NCBI RefSeq assembly: GCF_014196525.1
Contig: NZ_JACIDX010000002.1
Location: forward strand, 248,001-312,000
Direction: 5' to 3'
Length of the DNA: 64,000 nucleotides
From: Novosphingobium sediminicola
Lineage (GTDB): Bacteria; Pseudomonadota; Alphaproteobacteria; Sphingomonadales; Sphingomonadaceae
Shown here: in pieces, positions 6,966 to 64,000 of the stretch
Layout of the letters: each line of letters starts with the position of its first letter
How positions within the stretch are numbered: position 1 is the stretch's first letter
Made by a program: the position numbers and the translations under genes
The notes under the pieces: generated by a model
What the model was told of the DNA's origin: nothing
The model's database searches: none
Seen by the model: only the letters and a program-made list of their open reading frames with translations

Positions 6966-8342
6966 ATGATGAAATATACGGCGCGGCAAGGGCGAAGGTT
7001 CCCGCGCATGAAGGCGATGCTTTTTCTGGCCGCCGCCCTTGCGCCGGGCGCGGCGCAGGCCGGCTTGACCGCCGGTGCAGGCAGGGCCGCCATCGAACTG
7101 CCCGCCAGCCTCTTGCCCATCGACAGGTTCACCGCCCAGCTTGACCCGCTCGAAGTCCGTGTGCTGACGCTGGGCGACGGAACCAGCAAGGTGGCCATCG
7201 CGCTGATCGACCAGACCTCCTTGAGCGCGCGCGATGTCGCCACGATGCAGGCTGTAGTGGGCAAGGCGACCGGGGCGGCAGGTGAGGATGTGCTGGTGGT
7301 GGCCTCGCATACATTTTCCGCGCCGCATATGTTTGCCGCCAATCCGCCGCCGGGTATTGCCGTGGACGAGGCCGAAACCCTTCGCGCCCGCGCCTATGTC
7401 GCCAATGCCATGGCCGCGCTGGAAAAGGCCGCGCATCAGGCCGCCGACACGGCCGCCCCCGCCACGCTGCGCTTTGGCGCCGCGATCAGTCAGGTCGCCG
7501 TCAACCGCAATGTCGAAACCCCTGAAGGCTGGTGGCTGGGCGCCGATGAGGCGGGCTATTCGGATCGGACCGTGGCGACAGTGGAACTGGAAAGCGCCGA
7601 TCATCGCCCGATCGCCTCGCTGGTCAATTATGCCGTGCAATCCTCGGTAATGGACCAGACAGGCGGCCCCGATAGCAGTAAGGCGATCAGCGCCGATCTG
7701 GCCGGGGCCACGATGCGGCGGGTGGAACAGCATCTGGGCGGGGTCAGCCTGTTCCTGACCGGGGCGGCGGGGGATCAGGTGCCTGCCTATACCGCGCGCC
7801 GCTATGCCTATGGCGCGGATGGCAAGCCCGCGCTGGCCAGCCTTGGCGCGGCGGGCTATCCGCTGGTGGCGCTTCAGGGTGAGCGGCTGGGCGATGCCGC
7901 CTTGCGCGCGGCCCGCGCCGCTGCCCCGGTCCGTGCCGAACGCCTCACCCTGTTTCACGGCAAGGTCAGCCTGACCACGCAGGAGCGGCCCAAACAGCTT
8001 TCCCAGCTCAAACCCTCGCGCGATTATCGCTATCAGATCAACGGGCGGGCCGATGCGCCCTATACGCTGCTGACGCTGGGCGATGTGGCTATCATCGGGG
8101 TTCAGGTGGAATTGAGCGCGGCAACCGGGGCGTGGCTGCGCGCCCATTCGCCCTATCGCCACACGATAGTCGCCACGATGGTCAATGGCGCGGCCAAATA
8201 TCTGCCCGATGCGCAAAGCTATCGGCGCATCACCTATCAGGCGATGAATTCATCCTACGGCCCCGGTTCGGCCGAGGTCATGGCACAGGCCATCATCGCG
8301 CAACTGGGCCATATGGCCAAAGCCGGAAAGGGCGCCAAATGA
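6966..8342 (+). CDS. Secreted neutral/alkaline ceramidase-like hydrolase
   Basis: Exported protein of 458 residues resembling the N-terminal domain of neutral/alkaline non-lysosomal ceramidases, zinc amidases that split the N-acyl bond of ceramide. Supporting features: TAGAGRAAIELP after the signal peptide, LIDQTSL, VVASHTFSAPH (position of the family's THTHSGP zinc motif) and LFLTGAAGDQVP. It is shorter than classical ceramidases and the second histidine of the THTH motif is replaced (SHTF), so activity on ceramide should not be assumed. GGAGAGG precedes the ATG at 6966; an ATG at 7011 would also give a clean signal peptide. The next gene overlaps by four bases (ATGA), so these genes are cotranscribed, probably with the receptor system upstream. 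Confidence 0.7.
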   Translation: MMKYTARQGRRFPRMKAMLFLAAALAPGAAQAGLTAGAGRAAIELPASLLPIDRFTAQLDPLEVRVLTLGDGTSKVAIALIDQTSLSARDVATMQAVVGKATGAAGEDVLVVASHTFSAPHMFAANPPPGIAVDEAETLRARAYVANAMAALEKAAHQAADTAAPATLRFGAAISQVAVNRNVETPEGWWLGADEAGYSDRTVATVELESADHRPIASLVNYAVQSSVMDQTGGPDSSKAISADLAGATMRRVEQHLGGVSLFLTGAAGDQVPAYTARRYAYGADGKPALASLGAAGYPLVALQGERLGDAALRAARAAAPVRAERLTLFHGKVSLTTQERPKQLSQLKPSRDYRYQINGRADAPYTLLTLGDVAIIGVQVELSAATGAWLRAHSPYRHTIVATMVNGAAKYLPDAQSYRRITYQAMNSSYGPGSAEVMAQAIIAQLGHMAKAGKGAK

Positions 8343-9661
8343 ACCATTCCTTTCACCGCCGTGCGCTGATTCAGGGCGGGCTGGCGCTGTTGCTTTCGCA
8401 TCGGGCGGCACGGGCGGCGGGCGGCGCCTATCCGCGCGCCACGGCCGTGACCCGCGTATTTGGCGAAGGGCCAAAATTCGTCGCCATCGCGCTGGATTAC
8501 GGCGTTCCGGTGCTGGGCGGCAAGCTGGGCGCGGAGGCCTTTGCGGTCGAGGGGCGCAAGATCGCGCGCGCCTATACCAGCGACAGCCCCACCGGATCGC
8601 CAAGACCGAGCGGGCGTTTCGTCATCCTCGAACTTTCGGCGCAGGACAAGGATGCCATGCTGCGGGTCAACGCTCCCGCTGGCCCCAATCCCGGTGCCCC
8701 CGCTGGCGGCCCACCGATGAATGGCCCGCCGCGCATGCCCGCCTTCACCGTCCGGCGGCCTCAGGCCAGCATCCGCCAGGTCGCTCCGGTCAGGCTGGCC
8801 AATGGGCGCGTAGTGGCCCCCTCGCCAGCGCCGGTGGGTATCGGGGCGGTGATTACCCCCATCGTCGATGATTTTCGCCAGATGGAATGGCGCGATCCGG
8901 CCAATAGCTTGCTGATCCGCTATAACCTCTTTGTTCCCAAGGGTTATTCGCCCAAAAAGCGCTATCCGCTGGTGCTGTTCATGCATGACGCCAGCGTGAC
9001 CACCACGCTGACACAGGCCACGCTGGTGCAGGGACTGGGCGCACTGTGCTGGGCCAGTCCGCAGGATCAGGCCAAGCGCCCCTGTTTCGTGCTGGCCCCG
9101 CAATTCGAGCGGCAGGTGGCCAATGACGATTCCGAAACCACCGGCGAAATGGACAGCACGGTGGCGCTGATCGGGATGCTGGGCCGGAAATATGCCATCG
9201 ATCCGCGCCGCATTTACACCACCGGCCAGTCGGGCGGGGCGATGATGTCGATTGCAATGAACATCAAATATCCCGACCTGTTTGCCGCCTCCTTCATCGT
9301 GGCGGGGCAATGGGCGGCGGAAAAATGCGCCTTGCTGGCGCGGCAGAATATGTGGATCATGGTGGCACAGGGCGATCTCAAAGCCTTTCCCGGCCAGAAC
9401 GCGATCACCGCCGAAATAGAGCGCCATGGCGCCAAAATCAGCCGCGCAACGTGGGATGGCCGCTGGGACGCCCCGCAATGGCGCGACCATGTCGCCGCCA
9501 TCACCGCGCAGGGCAACCGCGTGATCTATACCGTTTTGGCTCAGGGCACCGTGGTTCCCGAGGGGCAGAGCGACAATGGCGGGTCGAACCACGTCAACAC
9601 CTGGCGGATCGCCTATACGATCCCCGAAATCCGCGATTGGATCATGCAGTGGCACAAATGA
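8339..9661 (+). CDS. Secreted EstA-like esterase/peptidase (alpha/beta hydrolase)
   Basis: Exported serine hydrolase of 440 residues. The ATG at 8339 overlaps the previous stop (ATGA) and begins a signal sequence with paired arginines (MNHSFHRRALIQGG), possibly Tat dependent. Residues about 35-110 resemble the Ig-like N-terminal domain of EstA-type esterases (KFVAIALDYGVPVLGGKL, RFVILELSAQD). The catalytic domain from about residue 195 shows NLFVPKGYSPKKRYPLVLF and the nucleophile elbow TGQSGGAM, with candidate acid and histidine near DNGGSNHVNTW. A proline/glycine-rich linker (NAPAGPNPGAPAGGPP) joins the two domains. The reaction is probably ester or amide hydrolysis of an imported or periplasmic compound; substrate unknown. 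Part of a three-gene hydrolase operon. Confidence 0.8.
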   Translation: MNHSFHRRALIQGGLALLLSHRAARAAGGAYPRATAVTRVFGEGPKFVAIALDYGVPVLGGKLGAEAFAVEGRKIARAYTSDSPTGSPRPSGRFVILELSAQDKDAMLRVNAPAGPNPGAPAGGPPMNGPPRMPAFTVRRPQASIRQVAPVRLANGRVVAPSPAPVGIGAVITPIVDDFRQMEWRDPANSLLIRYNLFVPKGYSPKKRYPLVLFMHDASVTTTLTQATLVQGLGALCWASPQDQAKRPCFVLAPQFERQVANDDSETTGEMDSTVALIGMLGRKYAIDPRRIYTTGQSGGAMMSIAMNIKYPDLFAASFIVAGQWAAEKCALLARQNMWIMVAQGDLKAFPGQNAITAEIERHGAKISRATWDGRWDAPQWRDHVAAITAQGNRVIYTVLAQGTVVPEGQSDNGGSNHVNTWRIAYTIPEIRDWIMQWHK

Positions 9662-48535: not shown

Positions 48536-48587
48536 ATGATTATGAATATGAATGGCGCAGCCCCCGCAAAGCGCCATGGGGACAATG

Positions 48588-49986: not shown

Positions 49987-51144
49987 GTGACCCCTTCCTT
50001 TGATCTTGACGCCCTGCGCAGCCAGTTCCCCTCGCTGCCGCGCCTCGCCTATTTCAATTCCGGCTCCTATGGCCTGCTGGCGCGCGGGGTGCGGGCCGCT
50101 TTCGATTCCTATCTCGACCGGCGCGAAGAGGTCGGCGCCGATTGGGGCGGATGGGTAATGGCCAATGAAGGGCTGCGTGGGCAAGTGGCCGCGCTGCTGG
50201 GCGTTTCGGGCGATGAGGTGGCGATCACCGCCTCGGCCTCGGCGGGGATCAATGCGGTGGCCTCTTCGCTCGATTATGCGGCGCGGCCCAAGATCGTGGT
50301 CACCAATTTCGATTTCCCCACCAGCGCCCAGATCTGGCACGCGCAGGCACAGGCGGGCGCGCAGGTCGTCCATGTGGCCGAGACGGAAGACGGCCTGATC
50401 CCGCTCGACGCGCTGCTTTCGGCCATTGACGAGCAGACCGCCATCGTGGCGCTCTCGCATGTCTGCTATCGCCATGGCGGACGCATTCCCGACGCGGATA
50501 TTCGCGCCGTGGTGGCACGCGCGCATGAATTGGGCGCTCTGGTCATTCTGGACGGCTATCAGATCATCGGCACGCAAGAGATCCGCCCCGCCGATCTGGG
50601 CGTCGATTTCTATGTCGGCGGCTTCCTCAAATATCTGCTGGGCACGGCGGGCGCAGGTTTTCTCTATGCCAGCGCCCGCGTGGTGGAACAGATCACCCCG
50701 CGCACCAGCGGTTGGTTTGCGCAGGCCGATATCAACGCGATGGACATCTTCGCCAACAGCCCCAGCCCTACCGCCCGCCGTTTCGAGGCCGGAACGCCTC
50801 CTGTCCCCAGCGCGATTGCCTGCGCGGCGGGACTGAAGGTTCTGGGCGAGGTCGGCCTGCCCGCCGTGGGCGACTGGATCGGGCAATTGACCGCGCTGAC
50901 GATCGAGCGCCTGGCGCAGGAAGGCATCGCCCCCGGTTCGCCCACCGATCCGGCGCGGCGCGGGCCTTTGCTGACCGTGGTGGCGCGGGATGACAATGCG
51001 CTGGTCGCCGCCCTTGCCGAGCAGGATGTCATCACCTCATGCCGCGACGGGCGGCTGCGCGCAGGGTTCCATTTCTACAATACGCTTGCCGATGTGGACC
51101 GCTTTTTGGATGCTCTGATCGCCAACCGCGCCCTATTGGCTTGA
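49987..51144 (+). CDS. PLP-dependent class V enzyme, kynureninase/isopenicillin-N-epimerase branch
   Basis: Fold-type I PLP enzyme of 385 residues. YFNSGSYGLLARGV near the N-terminus, ITASASAGINAV (phosphate-binding), SHVCYRHGGRIPD, VILDGYQIIG (aspartate contacting the pyridine) and the Schiff-base lysine in GGFLKYLLG are all present. The block RTSGWFAQADINAMD with RRFEAGTPPVPS recalls kynureninase-like and isopenicillin-N-epimerase-like proteins. It could be a lyase (kynureninase, cysteine desulfurase) or an epimerase/aminotransferase. It starts at a GTG with CGGAG upstream, between the NSS transporter and M20 peptidase genes, probably in one operon. Confidence 0.85.
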   Translation: MTPSFDLDALRSQFPSLPRLAYFNSGSYGLLARGVRAAFDSYLDRREEVGADWGGWVMANEGLRGQVAALLGVSGDEVAITASASAGINAVASSLDYAARPKIVVTNFDFPTSAQIWHAQAQAGAQVVHVAETEDGLIPLDALLSAIDEQTAIVALSHVCYRHGGRIPDADIRAVVARAHELGALVILDGYQIIGTQEIRPADLGVDFYVGGFLKYLLGTAGAGFLYASARVVEQITPRTSGWFAQADINAMDIFANSPSPTARRFEAGTPPVPSAIACAAGLKVLGEVGLPAVGDWIGQLTALTIERLAQEGIAPGSPTDPARRGPLLTVVARDDNALVAALAEQDVITSCRDGRLRAGFHFYNTLADVDRFLDALIANRALLA

Positions 51145-52791: not shown

Positions 52792-55179
52792 TTACCAGCG
52801 ATAGGTGAAATTGGCGCCAATCGTGCGCGGCGCCAGCGTCGAGGTCATCAGGAAGATGTTGGCCGCCCCCGACTGCGAGCTTTTGTACAGCGTGGGATAG
52901 GCATTGGTCAGGTTCTTGGCGAACACCGAGAAGGTCCATGCGTCCTTCGCCACGCCCGCGCGCAGATTGACCAGTTCATAGGCATCGCCCTGAAAATTGA
53001 TGGCATTATACAGGGTCGAACCCAGCGCCGGGGTGCGCGTATATTGGCCCGCATACTGATAATCGACGCGCAGCGAGCCGTTCAGCCCATACCACGGCAG
53101 CGCATGGTTGAGGTCAAGCGCCACATCCGCCGTCCAATCCGGCACGAAGGACAAAGCGCTGCCCTTGGTGGCCAGAACCGGGGCGATGCCGGTGGTGGCG
53201 TTCGCGGTGCCGGTCACGTTCTGGTCCAGCGTCGCCTTCGTATAGCCAACATTGCCGCTGATCGTGGCCCAGCTGGTCGGTCGGGCGGAAACCGACAGGT
53301 CGAAGCCCTTGCTGGTCGCATCCCCGAAATTGCCGACATAGCTGAACGAGCAATTCGAGAGCGACAGGTTCTGCTGAACATTGTGCCACTTCAGATAGAA
53401 GCCGCTGCCCGAAACCGACAGTTTGCCGCCAAGGAAGCGGCCCTTCATGCCGCCTTCAAAGCTCCACACGCTGTCATCGCCATAGGTCTGGGGGATGCTG
53501 CCGTTCTGGGCAATATCAGCCGCGCAGCGTGCCGATGGGATAGGGCGGTTGGCCCCGCCCGCACGGTTGCCCTTGGCCGCGGTGGCATAGAGCAGCAGGT
53601 TGGGGTTGGCCTGCCACGAGATGTTGAACTTGGGGTTTATCGGCGTTGATTTGGTCGAGGTCAGCGGCAGGATCTGGACCCCGCCCTGGAAATAGCCATT
53701 GCCGATATATTGGAACGAATAGCTCTGGCGCGCCACGCGAACGCCCGCGTTGAACTTCAGCTTGCTGGTCACGTTCCATGTCGCATCGGCAAAGGCCGAG
53801 GCCTGACGGTCGATTTCCACCTGATACTTGCTGGCCAGAATGCCGCCTGCCGAATAGGGGCCACCGTTGACCGTATAGTTGAAGGCGTTGCTGGGCACCA
53901 GATTGCCGCTCTGAAGGAAATAGACCGCCGAGGGATAGGACGCATTGGCGTCGCCCCATTCGACCTGAAGCAGCGATTGCTTGGAGGTGGAAAGGAACAC
54001 ACCCACCGTGCCGTAAACCGGCGCGGTCTGGTCATTGGTGGTCAGGCGGATTTCCTGCGTAAACAGGGTCTGCTTGGTGGCGGTCGATTGGGGCGAGCCG
54101 AAATTGGGGTTGTTGGCCATGAAGGCCCGCGTGCCGCCAGCGCCAAAGATGTTATAGGCGGCCACCTGCGTGTAATCATCCACGCGCGACAGATCGCGCC
54201 AGTTGCCCGAGGTGATCGACGTCAGCGTGGCCCCGCCGAAGTTATAGGCCATCTTCAGACTGCCGATCTTGATCTCGTCAGTATAGGGCGTGCTGGTCTG
54301 CTCAAAGCTTTGATACTTGCCCGAGGTGGGCCAGATGCCCGACCAGATCAAGCCATTGTCATTGCCATGCAGGCGCTGATAATTGAAGAAGGGCGTGATG
54401 GTCAGCTTGTCATTGGGCGCATAGGTCAGCGCCACGCGGACAGAAGTGTTGTCGGTGCTGTTGATGTTGCTGTTCAACACCTTGCCCGCCACGGTGCGCG
54501 ACATCTGGTCAATGAAGCCGCCATCGCGGCGATTGTCGACCGAGACGCGGATACCCAACTTGTCGGCGATCAGCGGGCCGCCCATGGCAACGCCGGTTTC
54601 ATAGCCGATGCCGCCATTCGCATTGGTGTTGACCTCGCCAACCGCCTTGCCGCTCCACTGGCTGAGGCTGGGTGCGGTGGTGATGAAGCGAACCGTGCCG
54701 CCTTCCGAGCTGGCGCCGTAAAGCGTGCCCTGCGGGCCGCGCAGCACTTCGACGCGTTCAAGGTCGAACAGGCTGGGGCTGACCGGCTGGGTCCAGTTGT
54801 TGGCGCGGCTTTGGGTGGGCACGTCGTCAATATAGATGCCGACCGTGGCCGCGCCCTGCGTGGTGGAAACGCCGCGGATCGAGATGTTGTTGCCGCCACC
54901 GATGGTCGCGCCGGGGCTGACATGGAAACCGGGGGTCGCCTTGGAGAGTTCCGAGACGTCGGTGATGCCGGTCTTTTCCAGATCCTTGCCGGTAAAGGCG
55001 GCGATGCTGATGGGAACCTTGGAGAGCGATTCATTGCGGCGCTGGGCGCTGACCACGATTTCGCCGGGGGCCGAGGCAGCTTCGGCGCTTTGCGCATGGG
55101 CGCTCATCGGGGCAAGCGCCAGAAGGCTGGCGGAGGTGCAGAGCAGAGCGGTCAGACGCGAGAAAGTGGCAGGTCTCAT
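52792..55179 (-). CDS. TonB-dependent receptor of the peptide/aromatic locus
   Basis: Outer-membrane receptor of 795 residues with signal peptide ending in SAHAQ and no STN domain. TonB box GEIVVSAQRRNESL; plug LSKATPGFHVSPGATIGGG, SIRGVSTTQGAATVGIYIDDVP, LERVEVLRGPQGTLYGASSEGG; barrel ending in IGANFTYRW with the terminal aromatic residue. Divergent from the CDGSH-cupin gene across a 429-base control region containing copies of an AT-rich motif shared with the amidohydrolase promoter. Convergent with the peptidase gene. Probably imports the compound that the neighbouring secreted hydrolases process. Confidence 0.95.
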   Translation of the reverse strand: MRPATFSRLTALLCTSASLLALAPMSAHAQSAEAASAPGEIVVSAQRRNESLSKVPISIAAFTGKDLEKTGITDVSELSKATPGFHVSPGATIGGGNNISIRGVSTTQGAATVGIYIDDVPTQSRANNWTQPVSPSLFDLERVEVLRGPQGTLYGASSEGGTVRFITTAPSLSQWSGKAVGEVNTNANGGIGYETGVAMGGPLIADKLGIRVSVDNRRDGGFIDQMSRTVAGKVLNSNINSTDNTSVRVALTYAPNDKLTITPFFNYQRLHGNDNGLIWSGIWPTSGKYQSFEQTSTPYTDEIKIGSLKMAYNFGGATLTSITSGNWRDLSRVDDYTQVAAYNIFGAGGTRAFMANNPNFGSPQSTATKQTLFTQEIRLTTNDQTAPVYGTVGVFLSTSKQSLLQVEWGDANASYPSAVYFLQSGNLVPSNAFNYTVNGGPYSAGGILASKYQVEIDRQASAFADATWNVTSKLKFNAGVRVARQSYSFQYIGNGYFQGGVQILPLTSTKSTPINPKFNISWQANPNLLLYATAAKGNRAGGANRPIPSARCAADIAQNGSIPQTYGDDSVWSFEGGMKGRFLGGKLSVSGSGFYLKWHNVQQNLSLSNCSFSYVGNFGDATSKGFDLSVSARPTSWATISGNVGYTKATLDQNVTGTANATTGIAPVLATKGSALSFVPDWTADVALDLNHALPWYGLNGSLRVDYQYAGQYTRTPALGSTLYNAINFQGDAYELVNLRAGVAKDAWTFSVFAKNLTNAYPTLYKSSQSGAANIFLMTSTLAPRTIGANFTYRW

Positions 55180-55426: not shown

Positions 55427-55541
55427 CGCCTACGCAATTTTGCCCCTTGCCATGATTTTGGCCGTTTCGCTGCGCCGCAGCATCGAAAAATGGCGGAAAG
55501 CCGGGGGCGATAGCGATTCGGACTTGCCGCAATTTGCATCA

Positions 55542-55553
55542 GGATATATATCC
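55542..55553. promoter_or_regulatory. Perfect 12-base palindrome upstream of the CDGSH-cupin gene
   Basis: GGATATATATCC is self-complementary over 12 bases and lies 55 bases before the GTG start, where a promoter or operator would be expected. Confidence 0.35.
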
Positions 55554-55608
55554 GTTTTCATGTTTTAGGCGCGGTATCCCCCACCCGCATCAATCGAGGA
55601 AGTCTGCT

Positions 55609-56673
55609 GTGACCGAGTGCAAAGCCGCCGACACCTGTTCCGCCCGCAAGGCTCATATCGCCAGTCGCAAGCCCTATTACCGCGAATTGCGCGCCGGTCA
55701 GAAGATCAAATGGTGCGCCTGCGGCCTGTCCAAGCGCCAGCCTTTCTGCGACAGCGTTTCGCACGAAGGCACCGGGTTTGAACCCATCGAATATGTCGCC
55801 AAGGAGGCCGAGGAAGTGCTGCTGTGCGGATGCAAGCAGACGAAAACCGGCCCCTTCTGCGATGGTGAACATTCGAACCTGCCGGGCGGATACAAGGACG
55901 AGGAAGAGCCGCAGAACACCACGCTGGTCGAGGCCGATGCCGATGGTTTCGCCCGCCTCAACACGCCCTGCTATGTGGTGTCACCGCCTGCGATGAGCGA
56001 TGCCTATGCGCTGGCTCGGCTGGTCGCGCCGGAAACGGGCGCGCAATTTCAGTCGCAATTCTATCTGACACTGCCTGCCGGTTCTTCGCCGGTGCTGGCC
56101 TCGGATGTGGGTGATGTGGTGCTGTGGGTGCGGCACGGCGCGGGCGTGGTCGAAATCGAGGGGCGCAGCTTTCCCTTCGATGGCTCCTGCGGCGTCTATA
56201 TCCGGCGCGGCGAGGGCTTTCGCCTGACCGCCTCGAGCCCGCTGGCGGTCTATGTCTCGGAATGCCCCGGCGGCAACAACCTGTCCGAACGCGCGGAAAT
56301 GGGCGCGAATTTTGACGAGGCGTGGCCCGAACGCATCGCCAAAATCGACGAGGATGCCCGGCAGGCCATGGGCCCGCGCTATTTCCAGGTGCTGCTCGAC
56401 GATCGCCACGGCTTGCGCAACACCGCGCAATTCATCGGCCATATCCCGCGCTCCAAGGCCGAGATGCACCGCCACCTTTACGAGGAGGCGCTCATCATCA
56501 TCTCAGGCACCGGGGTCATCTGGAACGATGATTTCCGCGCCCCGGTCAAGGCGGGTGACGTCATCTTCTTCCCGCGCAAGATCCGCCATTCGCTGCAATG
56601 CACCTGCGATGAAGGGCTCGACGTGCTGGGCCTGATCCATCCCGGCACCAATCCGGGTATCAATTACGAATAA
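55609..56673 (+). CDS. Double CDGSH iron-sulfur protein fused to cupin domains
   Basis: Protein of 354 residues starting at the GTG at 55609, with GAGGAA eight bases upstream. Two CDGSH [2Fe-2S] sites: C36, C38, C47, H52 (CACGLSKRQPFCDSVSH, one residue longer than the consensus before the histidine) and C73, C75, C84, H88 (CGCKQTKTGPFCDGEH, standard). Residues about 125-250 look like a first, degenerate cupin and about 285-345 a second one with intact metal motif: HRHLYEE, then GDVIFFPRKIRH. No signal peptide, so cytoplasmic. CDGSH domains carry out electron or cluster transfer; a metal cupin could be a dioxygenase or isomerase. I know no characterised protein with this order. Divergent from a TBDR and convergent with the PrnB-like gene. 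Confidence 0.85.
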   Translation: MTECKAADTCSARKAHIASRKPYYRELRAGQKIKWCACGLSKRQPFCDSVSHEGTGFEPIEYVAKEAEEVLLCGCKQTKTGPFCDGEHSNLPGGYKDEEEPQNTTLVEADADGFARLNTPCYVVSPPAMSDAYALARLVAPETGAQFQSQFYLTLPAGSSPVLASDVGDVVLWVRHGAGVVEIEGRSFPFDGSCGVYIRRGEGFRLTASSPLAVYVSECPGGNNLSERAEMGANFDEAWPERIAKIDEDARQAMGPRYFQVLLDDRHGLRNTAQFIGHIPRSKAEMHRHLYEEALIIISGTGVIWNDDFRAPVKAGDVIFFPRKIRHSLQCTCDEGLDVLGLIHPGTNPGINYE

Positions 56674-56700: not shown

Positions 56701-56731
56701 AAGGGGAGCTTGAGGGCTCCCCTTCTCTTTT
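56701..56731. terminator. Terminator between the CDGSH-cupin and PrnB-like genes
   Basis: AAGGGGAGC (56701-56709) and GCTCCCCTT (56716-56724) form a perfect nine-pair stem with six-base loop, followed by CTCTTTT. It terminates the plus-strand gene; the last bases overlap the stop of the convergent PrnB-like gene. Confidence 0.85.
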
Positions 56732-57899
56732 AGGCGATGGCAGCGCGCAGGCGGGCCATATCGTCATGGCGGCTGGCAATATCGCCGCGCGGCGCGGCCA
56801 TGCGCAGATCACGCAGGATTTCGAGCGAGCGCAAGAGAGCCTCGAGCGGCGGCCCGCTCGCGGTGATGCCCTGCATATGGCCCGGCGCCATCGTCTGGGC
56901 CGGACCGGCCACGAAACGGCTGACAAGCTGATCGTGATGCTGGGCCGCAATCGCGCCAAACGCATCGCATACGCCCAGAAAGGCCCGCACATTGGCCACA
57001 AACCAAGGCGCATCGCGGTCTGTCTCCACATGGTCGAGCAGTTGATCGAGGATCGATCGGCGGCTCATGCTCTCACGCAGGCGCAACTGTTCGGCCGGAA
57101 GCATATAGGGCAGCTTTTCATGCAGCAATTGCGCATAATAGGGATCGCTGGCCCGGCACAGGCCCAGCATCAGGTCGATCTCGTTGATCCCGGCAAAATC
57201 GCCCGCATTGGCCCCGCGATAGACCTGCCGCCCCACGCGATAGGGTTTATAATAGGGCCGAACGCAATAGAAAAACCGATCGATGTCAAGCGTTTCAAAC
57301 AAGCGCGCATTGCACGCCGCCACGCCCTTTAATGCCCCCTCGGCCTCGGCAAACAACACGTCGGCCACCGGGCTGCTCGCCCCCAGCGGCACCAGACGGG
57401 TCAACGCATAGGCCGCGCTTTGCAGGCCGAAAATACCCCGCGTGTTTTCGTCGATGAACAGGAATTCATCGTGCAATGTTGTGAAACTGCGCCGCAATCC
57501 GCCCACCGCGCGATTATGCGTGGCCAGATGCGCGGTGGCGAAACGCGGCGCCATGCCGATCGACACGCCCACATGCAGCGCCAGCGCGCTGGCCGTGGCA
57601 AAGGGCGAGGTGGTCTCACGATCCGGGTTGGTCAGTTCATGGCGGCGCAGCGCCCCCAGATACATGCCCACATCGCCCAGCAATTCGAGCGCGCTGTCAA
57701 ACCCGTCATGCGTGCGCCCCTCGGCCAGCAGGGGCGCGAGCAATTCCTCGCCCCGGCGCACCAGTTCGGCCTTCAGATCCGTCCCGATACCCTCAACCTG
57801 CGCGCGGTCGCCTTGCGCGAAATAGAGTTCCTCCAGCGCGGTGTTGATCGCGGCGAAATCGTGGCGAATCCATCGGTTGAGGGCGGCATCAGGGGACAT
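56730..57899 (-). CDS. PrnB-like protein of the IDO/TDO heme superfamily
   Basis: Protein of 389 residues related to monodechloroaminopyrrolnitrin synthase PrnB (DUF1864 family), a heme enzyme that rearranges 7-chlorotryptophan in pyrrolnitrin synthesis and shares the fold of tryptophan and indoleamine dioxygenases. The match is seen in GDVGMYLGALRRHE, FYCVRPYYKPYRVGRQVYRG and HEKLPYMLPAEQ, in the same order and spacing as in PrnB from memory. H321/H322 (QHHDQLVSRF) fall where the axial heme histidine is expected. No halogenase or other prn gene is nearby, so pyrrolnitrin synthesis is unlikely. Start: ATG at 57899 with GGAG ten bases upstream; a TTG at 57932 is possible. Lies downstream of the amidohydrolase/Lrp pair on the same strand. 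Confidence 0.82.
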   Translation of the reverse strand: MSPDAALNRWIRHDFAAINTALEELYFAQGDRAQVEGIGTDLKAELVRRGEELLAPLLAEGRTHDGFDSALELLGDVGMYLGALRRHELTNPDRETTSPFATASALALHVGVSIGMAPRFATAHLATHNRAVGGLRRSFTTLHDEFLFIDENTRGIFGLQSAAYALTRLVPLGASSPVADVLFAEAEGALKGVAACNARLFETLDIDRFFYCVRPYYKPYRVGRQVYRGANAGDFAGINEIDLMLGLCRASDPYYAQLLHEKLPYMLPAEQLRLRESMSRRSILDQLLDHVETDRDAPWFVANVRAFLGVCDAFGAIAAQHHDQLVSRFVAGPAQTMAPGHMQGITASGPPLEALLRSLEILRDLRMAAPRGDIASRHDDMARLRAAIA

Positions 57900-57939
57900 G
57901 GCGCATAGGCTCCGGCAAGAGGTGATCCGCAAGATCCTA

Positions 57940-58029: not shown

Positions 58030-58482
58030 CTATTCCACCGCCGCCATCACCGCCCCTGCCCGCTTGATCCGCTTCATGCCAATGGTGGTGTTGAACCGCT
58101 CCACCCCCGGCATCCGGCGCAATTGCCCGCGCAGCAATCCGTCCAGATGCGCCACATCGCGCGCCATCACATGCAGCAGATAATCCGCATCGCCCGCCGT
58201 AGTATAACAGGCAATCACACTGGGATGCTCGCAAGCCGCCGCCTCGAACGCGGCATGATCGGCAAAGCTGACCGACACCTGCACAAAGGCGTCCAGCGTC
58301 AGCCCCACCGCTTCCGGCTCGACCATCGCGCGATAGCCAAGGATCGCACCCGATGCCTCCAGCCCCTGCACCCGGTTCCAGCAAGGTGTCTTGGACATGC
58401 CCACCTCCTCGGCCAGATCGGCAAAGGACTGGCGGGCATCGCGCTCCAGCGCGCGCAGGATGGCGCGGTCGAACTTGTTCAT
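58030..58482 (-). CDS. Lrp/AsnC family regulator
   Basis: Regulator of 150 residues: N-terminal helix-turn-helix (DRAILRALERDARQSFADLAEEVGMSKTPCWNRVQGLE-type block; key part ADLAEEVGMSKTPCWNRV) and C-terminal RAM ligand domain (VSVSFADHAAFEAAA; TTAGDADYLLHVMARD). The family senses amino acids. Its ATG directly follows the stop of the upstream amidohydrolase (58483), and the PrnB-like gene is downstream, so the three probably form one transcript. It is the best candidate regulator of the region from 52 to 62 kb. Confidence 0.94.
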   Translation of the reverse strand: MNKFDRAILRALERDARQSFADLAEEVGMSKTPCWNRVQGLEASGAILGYRAMVEPEAVGLTLDAFVQVSVSFADHAAFEAAACEHPSVIACYTTAGDADYLLHVMARDVAHLDGLLRGQLRRMPGVERFNTTIGMKRIKRAGAVMAAVE

Positions 58483-59790
58483 TTACAGCGCGCTCTTGCC
58501 CGATTGCTTCACCACGACCCCGCCCTTCATCACGAAGGACATCTTTTCCAGCCGCCGCACATCCTGCAACGGATCGCCATCGACCGCCACCAGATCGGCA
58601 AAGCGGCCCGCCTCGATGCGGCCCACGTCCTTGCTGCCCAGCAATTCGGCGGCAACACCCGTGGCGGCCCGGATCGCATCCATCGGCTTCATCCCTGCAT
58701 CCACCATCAGCGCGAATTCCTGCGCATTCTCACCATGCGCCGACATGCCGAACGTGTCGGTGCCAAAGGCGATCTTCACCCCCGCCAGATAGGCGTCATG
58801 CAGGTTTTTGCGCAGCACCGGGGCGACATGCAAAGCCTTGTCGGCGGTCGAAGGGTTCAACTGTTCGGGATGAGTCTTGGCCCGCTGATAAACCTTGTCG
58901 CCCACCAGCATCGTGGGCACCAGATAGGTGCCATATTGCTTATACAGCTTATAGCTGCCCGCATCGCCAAACGATCCATGCTCGATCGAATCGACGCCCA
59001 GCGTGATGGCATGGTCAATCGCCTGCTTGCCATGCGCGTGCGCCGCCACCTTCATCCCCAGCGCATGAGCGGTTTCCACCACCGCCTTGATTTCCTCATC
59101 CGTCATCAATTGCCAGTCGGGATTGTCGCCAATCGACATCACCCCGCCCGAAGGCATGATCTTTATCAGATCCACCCCTTCGCGGTGCAGGCGGCGCACG
59201 ATGCGGCGCGCATCATCGGCCCCATCGACCAGATTGTCAGCAATATAAGGGACTTCTGCGATCTCGGCGTTCAGCCCATTGGCCGCATCGCCATGCCCGC
59301 CCGTCGGTCCCAGCGGCGAACCCGCCACCCACAGGCGCGGCCCCGGCACTGCCCCATCGGCAATCTCGCGCTTCAGGGCCACGACCACCGCCGTCTCGCC
59401 CCCGCAGTCGCGCACCGAGGTAAAGCCCGCCAGCAAGGTGGCACGGGCATAGGCGGTCGCATCAATGGCATGCTGAAAATCACTGCGCGTCACGGCGTTG
59501 CGAATGGGATCGCCGGGATGGAAACCATGGGTGATATGGTCATGGGTGTCGATGAGGCCGGGCAGCACCGTCTTGTCCGACAGATCGACCACCGCCGCGC
59601 CGGGGCGCGTGACGAAGCCTGCCTCAATCCCGGTGATGCGATCATCATGGATCAGGATCGAGACTTTCTCGCGCACCGCATCGCCCGCCCCGTCGATCAG
59701 CCGCCCGGCATGGACCACCACATCGCCCGCATAGGCCGGAACCGAGGCCAACATCGTTGCAGCCAGAGCCAGACATGCCAGTTTACGCAT
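58483..59790 (-). CDS. Secreted amidohydrolase (imidazolonepropionase/prolidase-like) 1
   Basis: Exported metal amidohydrolase of 435 residues. The ATG at 59790 has AAGGGAA before it and begins the signal peptide MRKLACLALAATMLASVPAYA; the frame is open to 59949 without coding character. Binuclear metal ligands: GLIDTHDHITHG (HxH), DLIKIMPSGGV (lysine, probably carboxylated), VAAHAHGKQAID (H), SIEHGSFG (H) and FGTDTFG (D). The subfamily, often annotated imidazolonepropionase-like, includes periplasmic dipeptidases and N-acyl amino-acid hydrolases of Caulobacter and Sphingomonas relatives. First gene of a minus-strand unit with lrp and the PrnB-like gene. Confidence 0.92.
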   Translation of the reverse strand: MRKLACLALAATMLASVPAYAGDVVVHAGRLIDGAGDAVREKVSILIHDDRITGIEAGFVTRPGAAVVDLSDKTVLPGLIDTHDHITHGFHPGDPIRNAVTRSDFQHAIDATAYARATLLAGFTSVRDCGGETAVVVALKREIADGAVPGPRLWVAGSPLGPTGGHGDAANGLNAEIAEVPYIADNLVDGADDARRIVRRLHREGVDLIKIMPSGGVMSIGDNPDWQLMTDEEIKAVVETAHALGMKVAAHAHGKQAIDHAITLGVDSIEHGSFGDAGSYKLYKQYGTYLVPTMLVGDKVYQRAKTHPEQLNPSTADKALHVAPVLRKNLHDAYLAGVKIAFGTDTFGMSAHGENAQEFALMVDAGMKPMDAIRAATGVAAELLGSKDVGRIEAGRFADLVAVDGDPLQDVRRLEKMSFVMKGGVVVKQSGKSAL

Positions 59791-59890
59791 AAATTCCCTT
59801 TCCCCCGGCGGCGATGGCCTGCCTTCATCGTGATGATAGCGCAATTTTGATCGGAAGCTATTGCTGAAACTTGCGTCAGCATGAATTATA

Positions 59891-59906
59891 TCATATGATT
59901 TTGCAT
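59891..59906 (-). promoter_or_regulatory. Shared 16-base motif, copy 2 (inverted)
   Basis: TCATATGATTTTGCAT, the exact complement of the copy at 55288-55303. It lies in the 187 bases between two divergent amidohydrolase genes, 101 bases from one start and 72 from the other. The overlapping ATCATATGAT is itself a perfect 10-base palindrome. Confidence 0.6.
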
Positions 59907-59977
59907 ACGTTAAAGAGCGAATTGCTCCGTGCTCCTTTCCGCCCTCCATCCGCCACTCCCATTTTATGAGGTCCTCT

Positions 59978-61393
59978 ATGCCACACCTGCTGCGATGGGC
60001 GTTGATGTCCGGCCTGCTTTGCGCCCCGGCGCTGGTTCAGGCGCAAAATGCCCTGTCGCCCGCCGCACGGGCCGCCCTGGAAACACCGGGCTCCCCCGCT
60101 CAGCCCGACGCCGAACATAGCCGCCTGCGCCTGCTGCGCGCCGGGGCCCTGCTGGCCGTTCCGGGCGAGGCGGCGCGAGGGCAAAGCACGCTGGTGATCG
60201 GGGCCGATGGCCGGATTACCGCGATCCACCCCGGATGGCCGGAACCCGCCGCTCTGGGCCTGCCCGCCGATACTGAGGTCATTGATCTCAAGGATCAATT
60301 TGTGATGCCGGGCTTCATGGATGTCCATGTCCATCTGACCAGCGGCGGCATCGCAGGGCGAATACCTGATGCGGCTCTGCGCGAGGAGGATGGGTTCTTC
60401 GCCCTCAATGGCGCGCGCAATGCGCGCTCCACGCTAATGGCGGGTTTCACTACGGTACGCGATCTGGGCGCGCCGGACGGGGCGATCTATCCTTTGCGCG
60501 ATGCGGTGCGGGCCGGAATCGTGGCCGGGCCGCATATCCTTGCCGCAGGCGCCGGGATCAGCCCCACCAACGGCCATGCCGATGTCCATGGCTTGCGCAA
60601 GGCGCTGCTGGCGGCATCGGATCGCGGCAACACCTGCAACGGGGCTGACGATTGCATGCGCGCCACCCGCGAGGCGATCCGCGCCGGGGCCGATGTCATC
60701 AAGGTCCACGTAACCGGCGGCGTCACCGACAGTTCGGACACCGGCACCGGCCAGCAATTCACCGACGCCGAATTGCAGGCCATCGCCTGGACCGCGCATT
60801 CGATGGGCCGCAAAGTCACCACCCATGCCCATGGCAAGGAAGGCATCGATGCCGCCGTGCGCGCGGGCTATGACAGTATCGAACATGCGATGTGGGCGGA
60901 TGAGGAAAGCCTCAAAGCGATGAAGGCACGGGGCACATGGCTGGTGCCCACGGTCTGGCCCATCGATTGGGTGGGCGATACGCCCGACAAGGTGCGCGCC
61001 GGACCGTTCCGCAATCTCAACGAAAACTCCATGGCCAAGATGCTGCTGCTGGGCGATCAGCCGAAGAAGCTGGCGCGCATGGCGGTGCGGCTGGGGGTAC
61101 CCATCGCGCTGGGCACGGATTCGGGCATTTCACCCCATGGCACCAACGGGCGCGAGATGATCGAATATGTCGCCGCCGGAATGAGCCCGATGGAGGCGCT
61201 GAAAACCGGCACGGTCAATGCCGCCGCCGCCATGGGTCTGAAGGATCGCGGGCGGATTGCGCCGGGTATGCTGGCCGATGTGATTGCGCTGGGCGGCGAT
61301 CCGATCCGCGATATTGCGCAGGTTCTCAATGTCCGTTTCGTGATGCGCGACGGCATCATTTTCAAACAATCAGGCATCGCGCAGGGAGAGTGA
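59978..61393 (+). CDS. Secreted amidohydrolase (imidazolonepropionase/prolidase-like) 2
   Basis: Exported metal amidohydrolase of 471 residues, about 36% longer at the N-terminus region between signal peptide and barrel than minimal members. Start at the ATG at 59978 with GAGG upstream (an ATG four codons earlier is possible); signal peptide ends near ALVQA. Metal ligands: GFMDVHVHLTSG (HxH), DVIKVHVTGGV (K), VTTHAHGKEGID (H), SIEHAMWAD (H), LGTDSGISPHG (D). A cysteine pair in NTCNGADDCM may form a disulfide, in keeping with export. The following amidohydrolase starts two bases after its stop. Confidence 0.92.
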   Translation: MPHLLRWALMSGLLCAPALVQAQNALSPAARAALETPGSPAQPDAEHSRLRLLRAGALLAVPGEAARGQSTLVIGADGRITAIHPGWPEPAALGLPADTEVIDLKDQFVMPGFMDVHVHLTSGGIAGRIPDAALREEDGFFALNGARNARSTLMAGFTTVRDLGAPDGAIYPLRDAVRAGIVAGPHILAAGAGISPTNGHADVHGLRKALLAASDRGNTCNGADDCMRATREAIRAGADVIKVHVTGGVTDSSDTGTGQQFTDAELQAIAWTAHSMGRKVTTHAHGKEGIDAAVRAGYDSIEHAMWADEESLKAMKARGTWLVPTVWPIDWVGDTPDKVRAGPFRNLNENSMAKMLLLGDQPKKLARMAVRLGVPIALGTDSGISPHGTNGREMIEYVAAGMSPMEALKTGTVNAAAAMGLKDRGRIAPGMLADVIALGGDPIRDIAQVLNVRFVMRDGIIFKQSGIAQGE

Positions 61394-61395
61394 AT

Positions 61396-62808
61396 ATGCG
61401 TGCGTTTCTATCCGTCATGGCCTTGGCCTCCGCATTGGCCGCAAACTCGGCGCGCGCCGAGGATCTGATCATCGATCATGTGACCTTGCTGGACGGCACC
61501 GGCGCCCCCGCCCGCGCCGATATGAGCGTGGGGGTCGACAAGGGCCGCTTTACCTTTGTAGCGCCTACCGCCTCGGCTCCGCGTGCGAGCGGGCGGCATA
61601 TCGATGCCACGGGGCAATTCCTGATCCCCGGCCTGATCGAAACGCATGCCCATTTGCGCCTGCCCGCCAATGCCAATCCGGCGGCCGAGGCGCCGCTCGA
61701 TGATGATGATCTGCCCATTCAGCCGACCTATTCCGCCGCCGAGCTTGAAAAGGCCCATGAGATGGGCGTGGGCGTGCTGGCAGGCTATCTCTATTCCGGC
61801 GTGACCACCTTGTTCGATGCTGGCAATTATGCGCCCTATGTCCTGCGCCTGCGCGCCGAGGAGCGGGCGGGCAAGATCGCCGCGCCCCATATTCTGGCCA
61901 CCGGCAATCTGGTCACCTATCCCGGCAGCCATGGCGATGCGGTGGCGGTGCGGATCGCCGACTGGCCTGCGGATCGGCCCAAATTCCTCGCCTATCTGCG
62001 CGAGCAGAAGCCCGATATCGTCAAGATCACCTATGAGGAACATGGCTGGGGCACGCGCCCGATGGTGTCCCTGATGCCTTTGCCGTTGATGCAGCAGATC
62101 ATCATCGAGGCCAATCGCCACGGCATTCGCACCGTGGTTCACACCTCCAACGAAATCCGCACGGTCGAGGCGCTGTCGGTCGGGGCCGATGCGCTGGCCC
62201 ATCCGGTAATCCAGGCACCGATCAGCGAGGGTTTTGCCCGAGAAATGGGTGCGAAAAAGACGCCCTTTGCCACCACGCTGACGATTGGCGATGGCTATAG
62301 CCGCTTGGTCGAACATCCCGAATATCTCGATCAGCCACTTTATCAGGCCGCGCTTTCCCCGCAGGAAATCGAGACCCTGCGCAAGGAAACCCTGCCCGCG
62401 TGGAAGGCGCGGGGGTGGACATGGTGGATGAAGCTGATGACGCCGGTGGCGGCCGAGAATATTCGCAAGGTCCATGATGCGGGCGGCGTGGTGGCGATCG
62501 GCACAGATCAGTCGCTGGGCCCGGCGGTGCATCGGGAAATGGAATTGTTGCAGCAGCAGGGCATCGCGCCCGCCGCGATTATCAGGATGGCCACACTCAA
62601 TGGCGCGATGCTGCTGGGCCGGGCGGCGGATCTGGGCAGCGTGGAAAGCGGTAAGATCGCCGATGCAGTGCTGCTCTCGGCCGATCCGGCGCGCGACATC
62701 AACAATGCCAAGGCCATCGTGGCGGTGATCAAACAGGGCGCGCTGGTCGATGAGGACAAGCTGCCTCTGCCCGGCGGCAAGCGGGGCCTGCGGCGTCAAC
62801 AACGATAG
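61396..62808 (+). CDS. Secreted amidohydrolase 3
   Basis: Exported amidohydrolase of 470 residues, with AGGGAGAG before the ATG and signal peptide MRAFLSVMALASALAANSARA. Metal ligands: GLIETHAHLRLPA (HxH), DIVKITYEEHG (K), RTVVHTSNEIRT (H), ADALAHPV (H) and IGTDQSLGP (D). It is more distant from amidohydrolases 1 and 2 than they are from each other: IEHxxxxD is replaced by LAHPVIQAP. It probably acts on a related but different amide or peptide. Cotranscribed with amidohydrolase 2; a terminator follows. Confidence 0.9.
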   Translation: MRAFLSVMALASALAANSARAEDLIIDHVTLLDGTGAPARADMSVGVDKGRFTFVAPTASAPRASGRHIDATGQFLIPGLIETHAHLRLPANANPAAEAPLDDDDLPIQPTYSAAELEKAHEMGVGVLAGYLYSGVTTLFDAGNYAPYVLRLRAEERAGKIAAPHILATGNLVTYPGSHGDAVAVRIADWPADRPKFLAYLREQKPDIVKITYEEHGWGTRPMVSLMPLPLMQQIIIEANRHGIRTVVHTSNEIRTVEALSVGADALAHPVIQAPISEGFAREMGAKKTPFATTLTIGDGYSRLVEHPEYLDQPLYQAALSPQEIETLRKETLPAWKARGWTWWMKLMTPVAAENIRKVHDAGGVVAIGTDQSLGPAVHREMELLQQQGIAPAAIIRMATLNGAMLLGRAADLGSVESGKIADAVLLSADPARDINNAKAIVAVIKQGALVDEDKLPLPGGKRGLRRQQR

Positions 62809-62815
62809 GGGAATA

Positions 62816-62850
62816 GGGGAGGGCGCCAAAGCGGCCCCTCCCCTGCTTTT
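62816..62850 (+). terminator. Terminator after the third amidohydrolase gene
   Basis: GGGGAGGG (62816-62823) pairs with CCCTCCCC (62836-62843); GCC/GGC pairs extend the stem past a one-base bulge. TTTT follows at 62847-62850 and touches the stop of the convergent iorB gene. Confidence 0.75.
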
Positions 62851-64000
62851 CAGGCCGCCTTGAGCAGGGTTTCGCGCGCATCGCGCAGAGCCTCGGCCCC
62901 CGCTCCGCCATCGGCCTGCGCCATGATCGCGGCAAAGCGTTCCAGAGAGCGCTCGAACGTATCGCCATAGCCCTTGATCAGGCGTTGCGCGCGGATGATC
63001 TCGGCGGCGCGGGCAAGGTCGGTGCGGGCTGCTTTTTGGGCGCGATCCAGCCATGCCTCGATCCGGCCCTGTTCCTCGGCATAGCGCAAGGTGCTGCGCC
63101 GCCAGCCCCGGCCCATCGCCACCAGACGCAGCGCGATGAACCAGCGCAGCGAGGTGGTTTCCACATGCCGCCCCTTGGACAGTGCCCGGTCCAGCCATGC
63201 CGACCCCATCACCCGCCGCCCCAGCCATGCCGGCAGGCTCTCGGCCACTTCCTGAAGCCGGGGATGCATGAATTCGGTGACGGTCAGGACCTGTCCGTCC
63301 TTCACCTTGACCTCATCGCGCACCCGTTCAAACCGGGCGGCGCGCACTTTCAGATCGGCCACGCGGATCGTGTCCTCATAGGCCATCCAAAGGGCGAGAT
63401 GGCGCGCGGCCTCCTGCGTCAGGTCGAAAGGCGCGCGGTCCAGGGCGGCGATCCGTTCCAGTCGATCCAGATAGAGCGCGGCATAGTCGCCATCCTGATA
63501 ATCCATCAGCTTGGCCAGCCCGTGCAGCGCATTGGCCAGCGCCGCATCGGGAAGGCCCGCCCGCGCCCGCGCGGCCAGCACCTTACCCATCGTGGTGGTC
63601 GGCGTGGGGATCTCGAGCCCCTCCTCCTGCGGCATGGCGATCTCGCCCTGCGCGCGGGCAAAGCCCTCGGCAAAACCGGCAAGGTTGCTTTTGACCGCCT
63701 TGCCGCTGTGATGGATCGCGGCTTCAAAGGCTTCCCGCGGGAAAGGCAAGGCGCCGCTGCCCGCCAGCGCGCCGAACATGATCACGCTGATCACGCTATG
63801 GGTGCGCTCGGTGGCGGCCTCCATATCGAAACCGATGAAGCGGGCCGAGCGTTCGCGGGCCGCGGCAAGGATCTTCTCGCCATTGCCGCGCCCGTCGCCC
63901 GCCACCTGCTTTTCGGAAATGGCATAGATGCGGTGGGTCGATCCAATCAGCGTGGTCTTGCCCGCGGTGGAAAATCCGCGCAGCACCGCGCGGCCCGTTT
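62850..64000 (-). CDS. iorB: Indolepyruvate oxidoreductase subunit beta (5' part outside window)
   Basis: The frame is open past the right edge, so the start is not in the window; 383 codons plus stop are visible. The N-terminal visible part (to about residue 110) is the gamma-type domain of 2-oxoacid:acceptor oxidoreductases (GKTTLIGSTHRIYAI, FIGFDMEAATERTHSVISVIMFGALAGSGALPF), followed by a long helical DUF6537 domain with DYQDGDYAALYLDRLE and MAYEDTIRVADLKVRAARF. This two-domain layout is that of IorB, which with IorA converts indolepyruvate (and other aryl pyruvates) to arylacetyl-CoA. It suggests aromatic amino-acid catabolism in this region. Confidence 0.87.
   Translation of the reverse strand, partial: TGRAVLRGFSTAGKTTLIGSTHRIYAISEKQVAGDGRGNGEKILAAARERSARFIGFDMEAATERTHSVISVIMFGALAGSGALPFPREAFEAAIHHSGKAVKSNLAGFAEGFARAQGEIAMPQEEGLEIPTPTTTMGKVLAARARAGLPDAALANALHGLAKLMDYQDGDYAALYLDRLERIAALDRAPFDLTQEAARHLALWMAYEDTIRVADLKVRAARFERVRDEVKVKDGQVLTVTEFMHPRLQEVAESLPAWLGRRVMGSAWLDRALSKGRHVETTSLRWFIALRLVAMGRGWRRSTLRYAEEQGRIEAWLDRAQKAARTDLARAAEIIRAQRLIKGYGDTFERSLERFAAIMAQADGGAGAEALRDARETLLKAA

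Follow-up and report, generated by a model that had tools for sequence, protein, structure and literature searches.

Which reaction does a heme protein of the PrnB family perform at a locus without homologues of prnA, prnC or prnD? The DNA analysed here is a 64,000-nucleotide stretch from Novosphingobium sediminicola (hereafter, the window). On its minus strand, at 56730-57899, lies an open reading frame of 389 amino acids counted from its ATG (a further in-frame TTG occurs at 57932), which encodes a member of the PrnB/SO4414 family (PF08933) and a candidate indole-ring oxygenase. A previous sequence-only reading of this DNA had reported the PrnB-like frame, and all three of the motifs it quoted were found there; it had also proposed that the protein follows PrnB and carries out a new oxidative step on tryptophan, a tryptophan peptide or an indole compound. 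Based on the relatives of the protein and on the genes that recur beside it, we lean towards the view that its reaction is oxygenation of the indole ring, on tryptophan or a close analogue, to a kynurenine-type product, in the place of TDO.

Family and predicted fold of the heme protein

Both the family membership and the predicted fold of the heme protein are settled. PF08933 covers residues 6-387 (E = 4.7e-154; 513 bits against a cut-off of 27) and is the sole Pfam match at E 0.1; PF03301, the TDO family, gave none. The closest solved proteins by sequence are two entries for SO4414 from Shewanella (E about 3e-127, precisely 2.8e-127, again over residues 6-387), to which the protein is 50-51% identical with Z scores of 50-53 over 362-374 residues; in the same search of solved proteins, the PrnB structures were matched at 5.9e-14 and 3.2e-6. 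The AlphaFold2 model (mean pLDDT 90.9, pTM 0.90) has an IDO/TDO-like helical fold and matches heme-bound SO4414 at Z 53.2, PrnB at 31.2, IDO2 at 30.4 and IDO1 at 29.9 (for IDO and PrnB together, Z 29-31 with 316-336 residues aligned); TDO itself is missing from the best 50 fold matches to the model. A profile of 27 family sequences also finds human IDO1 (E = 1.5e-4). Membership of the IDO/TDO/PrnB superfamily, as asserted in the sequence-only reading, is thus borne out by the PF08933 match and the predicted fold, with significant matches to both PrnB and IDO. The claim that the protein follows PrnB is rejected, because the bit score is only 55 for PrnB as compared to 428 for SO4414, identity to PrnB over the fold is 18-21%, and IDO is equally near. 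The protein groups with SO4414 and is not a PrnB; its fold is as close to IDO as to PrnB, and PrnB is in this case a mere family name, and a misleading one. Among the matches listed in a search of the open-licence literature, none gave a function for the PF08933/SO4414 family: the branch has solved structures, yet no assigned role in the literature found.

Two adjacent histidines, H321 and H322, are invariant in all 27 aligned family members, as is the segment T346 to P350 (TASGP), which follows the histidines where, we presume, IDO and TDO have their substrate loop. The sequence-only reading had named H321 or H322 as candidates for the axial heme ligand; the alignments disagree as to which residue it would be. 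In the profile alignment to human IDO1, H322 falls on the histidine of RSYHLQ, which we take to be axial ligand His346. Against PrnB chain 9dfg, gap placement sets H321, not H322, on a histidine.

Distribution of the family

PF08933 is present in 8 of 396 genomes of the window's order, in 7 of 398 genomes of its phylum (six above the cut-off) and in 17 of 295 genomes of another order (around genome G739), which we take to be gammaproteobacterial since named loci of the same kind are. A scan of named genomes returned 18 PF08933 loci. Among these 18 are loci of two Novosphingobium strains, whose copies are 97-98% identical to that of the window and which share its gene order. The heme gene is single-copy in the window's genome. 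The 43 loci counted below omit the window itself (L001) and a sub-cut-off fragment (L032); they include near-copies (L002/L003 and L013/L015), as well as L017, whose heme gene was counted with a start set by hand. In L017, from a metagenome bin, a frameshift or an error of assembly divides the heme gene (8001-9156) between two frames. The L032 fragment (G489 C191:4040-4189) scores below the PF08933 cut-off, contains two in-frame TAA stops and is perhaps a relic.

A kynureninase-like gene as recurrent partner

Clustering of the open reading frames around the heme gene identified a kynureninase-like class V PLP gene, denoted KYNL, as its main recurrent partner. Outside the window, KYNL lies less than 300 bp from the heme gene in 31 of the 43 loci, on the same strand in 28 and with an overlap of 1-4 bases in eight. 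Among the 12 loci without an adjacent KYNL, L024 has the gene 948 bp away, and L002 and L003 have it 5.6 kb away; at the other nine, it was not found in the DNA around the heme gene.

Kynureninase is the top NCBIfam model for all five of the adjacent KYNL proteins tested, although far below cut-off; KYNL proteins, adjacent or related, reach 50-102 bits against the kynureninase equivalog TIGR01814 (cut-off 246.4). The solved structure closest to the KYNL profile is the kynureninase of P. fluorescens (186 bits; 133 for the next chain). A lysine aligned with the PLP lysine, the tryptophan of GWF and a C-terminal arginine are invariant in 18 of 18 KYNL sequences; at the position aligned with Tyr226 of kynureninase, presumably a catalytic residue, KYNL carries valine or leucine. 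The kynureninase C-terminal domain (PF22580, cut-off 27) scores above cut-off in three of six PrnB-linked KYNL proteins other than those of the window and L050 and gave no match at E 0.001 in the TDO-linked KYNL of L133. Canonical kynureninase occurs above cut-off in four of 26 PF08933 genomes (G652, G227, G199 and G339), and a TIGR01814 search of the window's whole genome returned no match at E 0.001; such genome-search negatives are soft for divergent proteins, because TIGR01814 also missed the PLP protein of the window and the KYNL of G282 and G627. Where KYNL adjoins the heme gene, the case for a kynurenine-type setting is strong.

The second recurrent partner is an Lrp/AsnC gene, observed in 13 of 32 loci (window counted, L003 omitted). 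The window's copy, recognized by Pfam, is located at 58030-58482 on the minus strand, 130 bp upstream of the heme gene and in the same orientation. In pairwise comparisons confined to PrnB- and TDO-linked Lrps, its product is 45-50% identical to the Lrps beside four short TDO-like genes (described below), 63% identical to the L004 Lrp, 39% to the L019 Lrp and 31-41% to the gamma-type PrnB-linked Lrps found by tblastn. KynR (PMC4349456) is an Lrp/AsnC regulator of kynABU with L-kynurenine as effector.

The PLP gene and its neighbours in the window

The window has its own type of KYNL, a class V PLP gene at 49987-51144 on the plus strand, 5.6 kb from the heme gene and opposite to it. Its product scores above the cut-off of 27 for KYNU_C (PF22580; 32.4 bits, with 39.2 for the gene of L050), is matched better by the SufS model than by kynureninase in NCBIfam (116.2 against 73.8 bits, both below cut-off) and has kynureninase and cysteine desulfurase in near tie as its best PDB matches (92 and 88 bits). 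It is 92% identical to the L003 protein, 49% to that of L050 (genome G227) and 19-28% to 15 other KYNL proteins; in the KYNL tree, the window type lies outside the kynureninase clade, on a starred branch of its own (99/95). By gene content, the case for a kynurenine-type setting in the window is a fair one.

Between the PLP and heme genes lie a TonB-dependent receptor (52792-55179, minus strand; such receptors occur in 10 of 32 loci, window counted and L003 omitted), an M20 gene and a CDGSH-cupin gene (55534-56673, plus strand), whose product joins CDGSH iron-binding motifs and a cupin in one protein. A sodium:neurotransmitter symporter gene (SNF, PF00209; 48552-49958, plus strand) ends 28 bp before the PLP gene, and L012 also has an SNF gene near its PrnB-like gene. 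Three amidohydrolase genes adjoin the Lrp gene (58483-62808), two of them matching the Xaa-Pro dipeptidase model below cut-off. The Lrp regulator, amidohydrolases and CDGSH-cupin protein named in the sequence-only reading are all present by Pfam; the PLP gene at 49987 and the symporter at 48552 were absent from it. A tryptophan peptide as substrate, also suggested there, has in its favour only the peptidase-like neighbours, for which no conserved link was seen beyond the closest strains. Among the loci examined, M20 matches are confined to the near-identical L002 and L003, and amidohydrolase matches to the same two plus loose relatives in L019 and L049; a peptide-specific enzyme was dropped as a candidate.

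Exchange with TDO-like genes beside KYNL

In the 295 genomes of the other order, a search with the KYNL profile gave scores of 360-559 bits in 22 (six of which were rows of the profile), with the next match at 215. Seventeen of the 22 carry PF08933; the other five have no PF08933 and carry a short PF03301 gene. KYNL stands beside the PrnB-like gene in 16 of the 22, and G652 has both, apart. In four of the five KYNL genomes without PF08933, the TDO-like gene is directly beside KYNL, with an Lrp gene in three: in G1010, G990 and G980, the TDO-like gene abuts KYNL or overlaps with it, and the Lrp gene is oriented divergently from the TDO-like gene; in G989 the pair has no neighbouring Lrp. In the fifth, G1000, the TDO-like gene is accompanied by an Lrp and KYNL lies elsewhere; the flanks look, by eye, like the KYNL flanks of G652. 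All 22 KYNL genomes fall among the 71 with either family (P = 1.4e-15, relatedness ignored), and all five without PF08933 have PF03301 (P = 2.4e-4, relatedness ignored). No PF03301 match was found in any of the 26 genomes with PF08933 above cut-off; exclusion of the two families by itself is weak as an argument (P = 0.029, relatedness ignored) and was dropped.

The swap is observed inside genera: in g247, G652 is PrnB-like while G980 and G1000 are TDO-like; in g235, eight genomes are PrnB-like and G989 is TDO-like. A KYNL tree that took in 22 of the 31 adjacent KYNL genes, with long branches flagged (above all L135, which is not KYNL-type), recovered G652 and G1000 as sisters (100/99) and placed the TDO-linked rows in two places among the PrnB-linked rows. 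To fit its starred branches, the PrnB label must have changed at least three times and the TDO label at least four times; L135, placed outside, accounts for one of the TDO changes. Alternation of two heme-superfamily branches beside one PLP gene is what would be expected if both supply the same kind of product.

Two TDO-linked loci have further contents. L135:6627-14731 (G975 C14:246600-254700) encodes a short TDO/MarE-like gene, a class V PLP gene and a further open reading frame partly matched by PF03301, along with genes named by eye as FAD-type monooxygenase, aminotransferase, cyclase-like and HisC-like; it looks like a natural-product cluster built on oxygenated tryptophan. L133:10580-13698 (G990 C1) contains two tryptophan-halogenase genes (PF04820) about 2 kb from the KYNL that adjoins the TDO-like gene.

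Formamidase and possible use of the product

The formamidase KynB belongs to PF04199. In G227 (L050), a window-type PLP gene, a PF04199 cyclase and the heme gene are consecutive in one direction; the cyclase has no NCBIfam model match at 1e-5. G227 has no TDO match, and an alpha/beta hydrolase (PF20434), a possible formamidase, adjoins its canonical kynureninase. Among the 17 PF08933 genomes of the other order, PF04199 was unmatched in 16 and no KynB-type formamidase was seen, so either another formamidase acts there or the formylated compound is used directly. We raise tentatively, as a doubtful extension, that the PrnB name covers a further bacterial lineage of tryptophan ring opening, distinct from TDO and IDO, which with KYNL would form a formamidase-free path via N-formylkynurenine to N-formylanthranilate and alanine.

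The window ends within an indolepyruvate oxidoreductase beta-family gene, whose C-terminal part occupies 62850-64000 (minus strand) and whose start lies 265 bases past the window. Outside, the alpha subunit and then a PF04199 cyclase follow, and 16.6 kb from the end of the window lies a bifunctional monooxygenase matched by NF006101 (named salicylyl-CoA 5-hydroxylase; 1153 bits against a cut-off of 1078), a model that we take to include 2-aminobenzoyl-CoA monooxygenases. The window and its right flank have in common with G227 the heme gene (61%), the PLP gene (49%), the CDGSH-cupin gene (44%, in the corresponding cluster), the cyclase (62%), the indolepyruvate-oxidoreductase-type alpha (67%) and beta (51%) genes, the bifunctional monooxygenase (47%) and MarR-like genes. 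This gene set suggests that an anthranilate-type product is used via its CoA ester. The search for full-length NF006101 proteins covered 26 PF08933 genomes: six of the nine from the window's class have one, as compared to two of ten same-genus controls without PF08933 (P = 0.07), and none of the 17 from the other order does. In just two of these six, the window's genome and G227, is the monooxygenase encoded close to the heme gene. The association is weak, and a 2-aminobenzoyl-CoA-type tail was dropped as a general partner. The iad/iac auxin loci also carry iorA/iorB homologues (PMC9613470).

Proposed function and alternatives

The order of steps that we propose is as follows: a heme oxygenase, probably His-ligated, would bind L-tryptophan or a close analogue; it would oxygenate the indole ring with O2 to give a kynurenine-type product, most likely N-formylkynurenine; and KYNL, whose part in the window might be taken by the gene at 49987-51144, would cleave the side chain, yielding alanine and an anthranilate-type product. 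The Lrp/AsnC regulator, perhaps of the KynR kind, would control the heme gene, and the SNF symporter may import the amino acid. What speaks for a heme enzyme that would convert tryptophan and O2 to N-formylkynurenine is its gene context. Indole oxygenation is well supported, and ring opening by the heme enzyme less well; a kynurenine-type product is favoured because the partner gene resembles kynureninase. On the whole, we judge the enzyme to be probably TDO-like in function, a likely stand-in for TDO and not its orthologue. The setting suggests breakdown of tryptophan or a close relative, rather than antibiotic making as for PrnB. Of the new oxidative step on tryptophan or indole suggested previously, the oxidation is supported by context; the novelty is unproven, and the genomic context fits an old step, indole oxygenation as by TDO, carried out via another branch of the superfamily.

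The reaction shared by the two branches need not be dioxygenation, because the five KYNL-linked TDO-like proteins reach just 110-136 bits against the TDO equivalog, whose cut-off is 390.7, are without the helix F/G insert and carry SLKGR where TDO has GTGGS. MarE, a 2-oxindole-forming monooxygenase, is likewise without the insert and has a similar loop, SLGGR (PMC11904535). The heme enzyme and its TDO-like stand-in might then both make 2-oxindole (oxindolyl-alanine) or a related product, with KYNL performing another PLP reaction, a serious rival, though an improbable one. It would agree with the inactivity of PrnB with the oxidants tested in vitro (PMC11791213), and the PF04199 cyclase, ior-type genes and NF006101 monooxygenase of the window's genome and G227 recall indole and auxin routes, although only in those two genomes is the full-length monooxygenase linked to the heme gene, and none of the 17 PF08933 genomes of the other order had a match to it. 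Weighing against it, KYNL is most like kynureninase, and the short TDO-like protein of G980, the only one tested, is nearer to TDO (91 bits) than to MarE (38 bits; entries 8vyy/9ca3).

Oxidation of some other aromatic amino compound, of the tyrosine or hydroxyindole type, is unlikely; the likeness of KYNL to kynureninase would then reflect no more than the chemistry common to class V PLP enzymes. In its favour, both KYNL and the TDO-like partner are divergent, the window PLP protein scores best against SufS, and tyrosine-derived substrates are also oxidised within the superfamily (PMC11904535). However, Tyr24, Phe51, His55, Tyr113, Arg117 and His240 (XcTDO numbering) are kept in all five KYNL-linked TDO-like sequences; a sixth sequence, from L135, has phenylalanine at Tyr113. 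The XcTDO numbering, in which His240 is the axial residue, was assigned by counting along the alignment.

A PrnB-type rearrangement to aminophenylpyrrole or another secondary metabolite, for which the Pfam family name and the PrnB fold at Z 31 speak, is very improbable and was dropped, PrnB being distant, no prn genes having been found in the window, and the recurrent KYNL and Lrp partners looking catabolic and recurring in sphingomonads and gammaproteobacteria. The sequence-only reading that prnA, prnC and prnD homologues are missing from the window is supported: two tryptophan-halogenase (PF04820) queries gave no tblastn match at E 0.01 in the window or right flank, and the one match there to a Rieske pattern is not credible, as nothing else supports the 107-residue open frame that contains it.

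Comparison with known systems

A TDO-like role would give a testable assignment to a family whose heme-bound crystal structure came out in 2006. Standard annotation would miss such a tryptophan-type catabolic operon, because the PLP enzyme and the TDO-like stand-in score below curated cut-offs. The natural swap of two heme-dependent aromatic oxygenase branches also offers a handle on what decides between di- and mono-oxygenation.

SO4414 of Shewanella oneidensis (PDB 1zee and 2nwb, the latter with heme by its title) is a PF08933 homologue from another organism and gene setting; many relatives have KYNL next to the heme gene, and in the window the PLP gene stands apart from it. PrnB shares the Pfam family, the fold (Z 31.2 over 330 residues) and an RPxYxPxRVG segment; it differs in its low identity, in the prn genes, of which none was found in the window, and in the catabolic-looking partners that recur here. 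IDO1 and IDO2 resemble the heme protein in fold (Z 29-30), and IDO1 further in the profile match and in the conserved histidine on its presumed axial ligand, whereas identity is 13-16% and the heme gene here sits in a bacterial locus with a PLP enzyme. As for TDO and MarE, the heme protein has no match to PF03301, and no such match was found in the 26 PF08933 genomes searched; in four genomes a short TDO-family protein occupies the heme gene's place beside KYNL.
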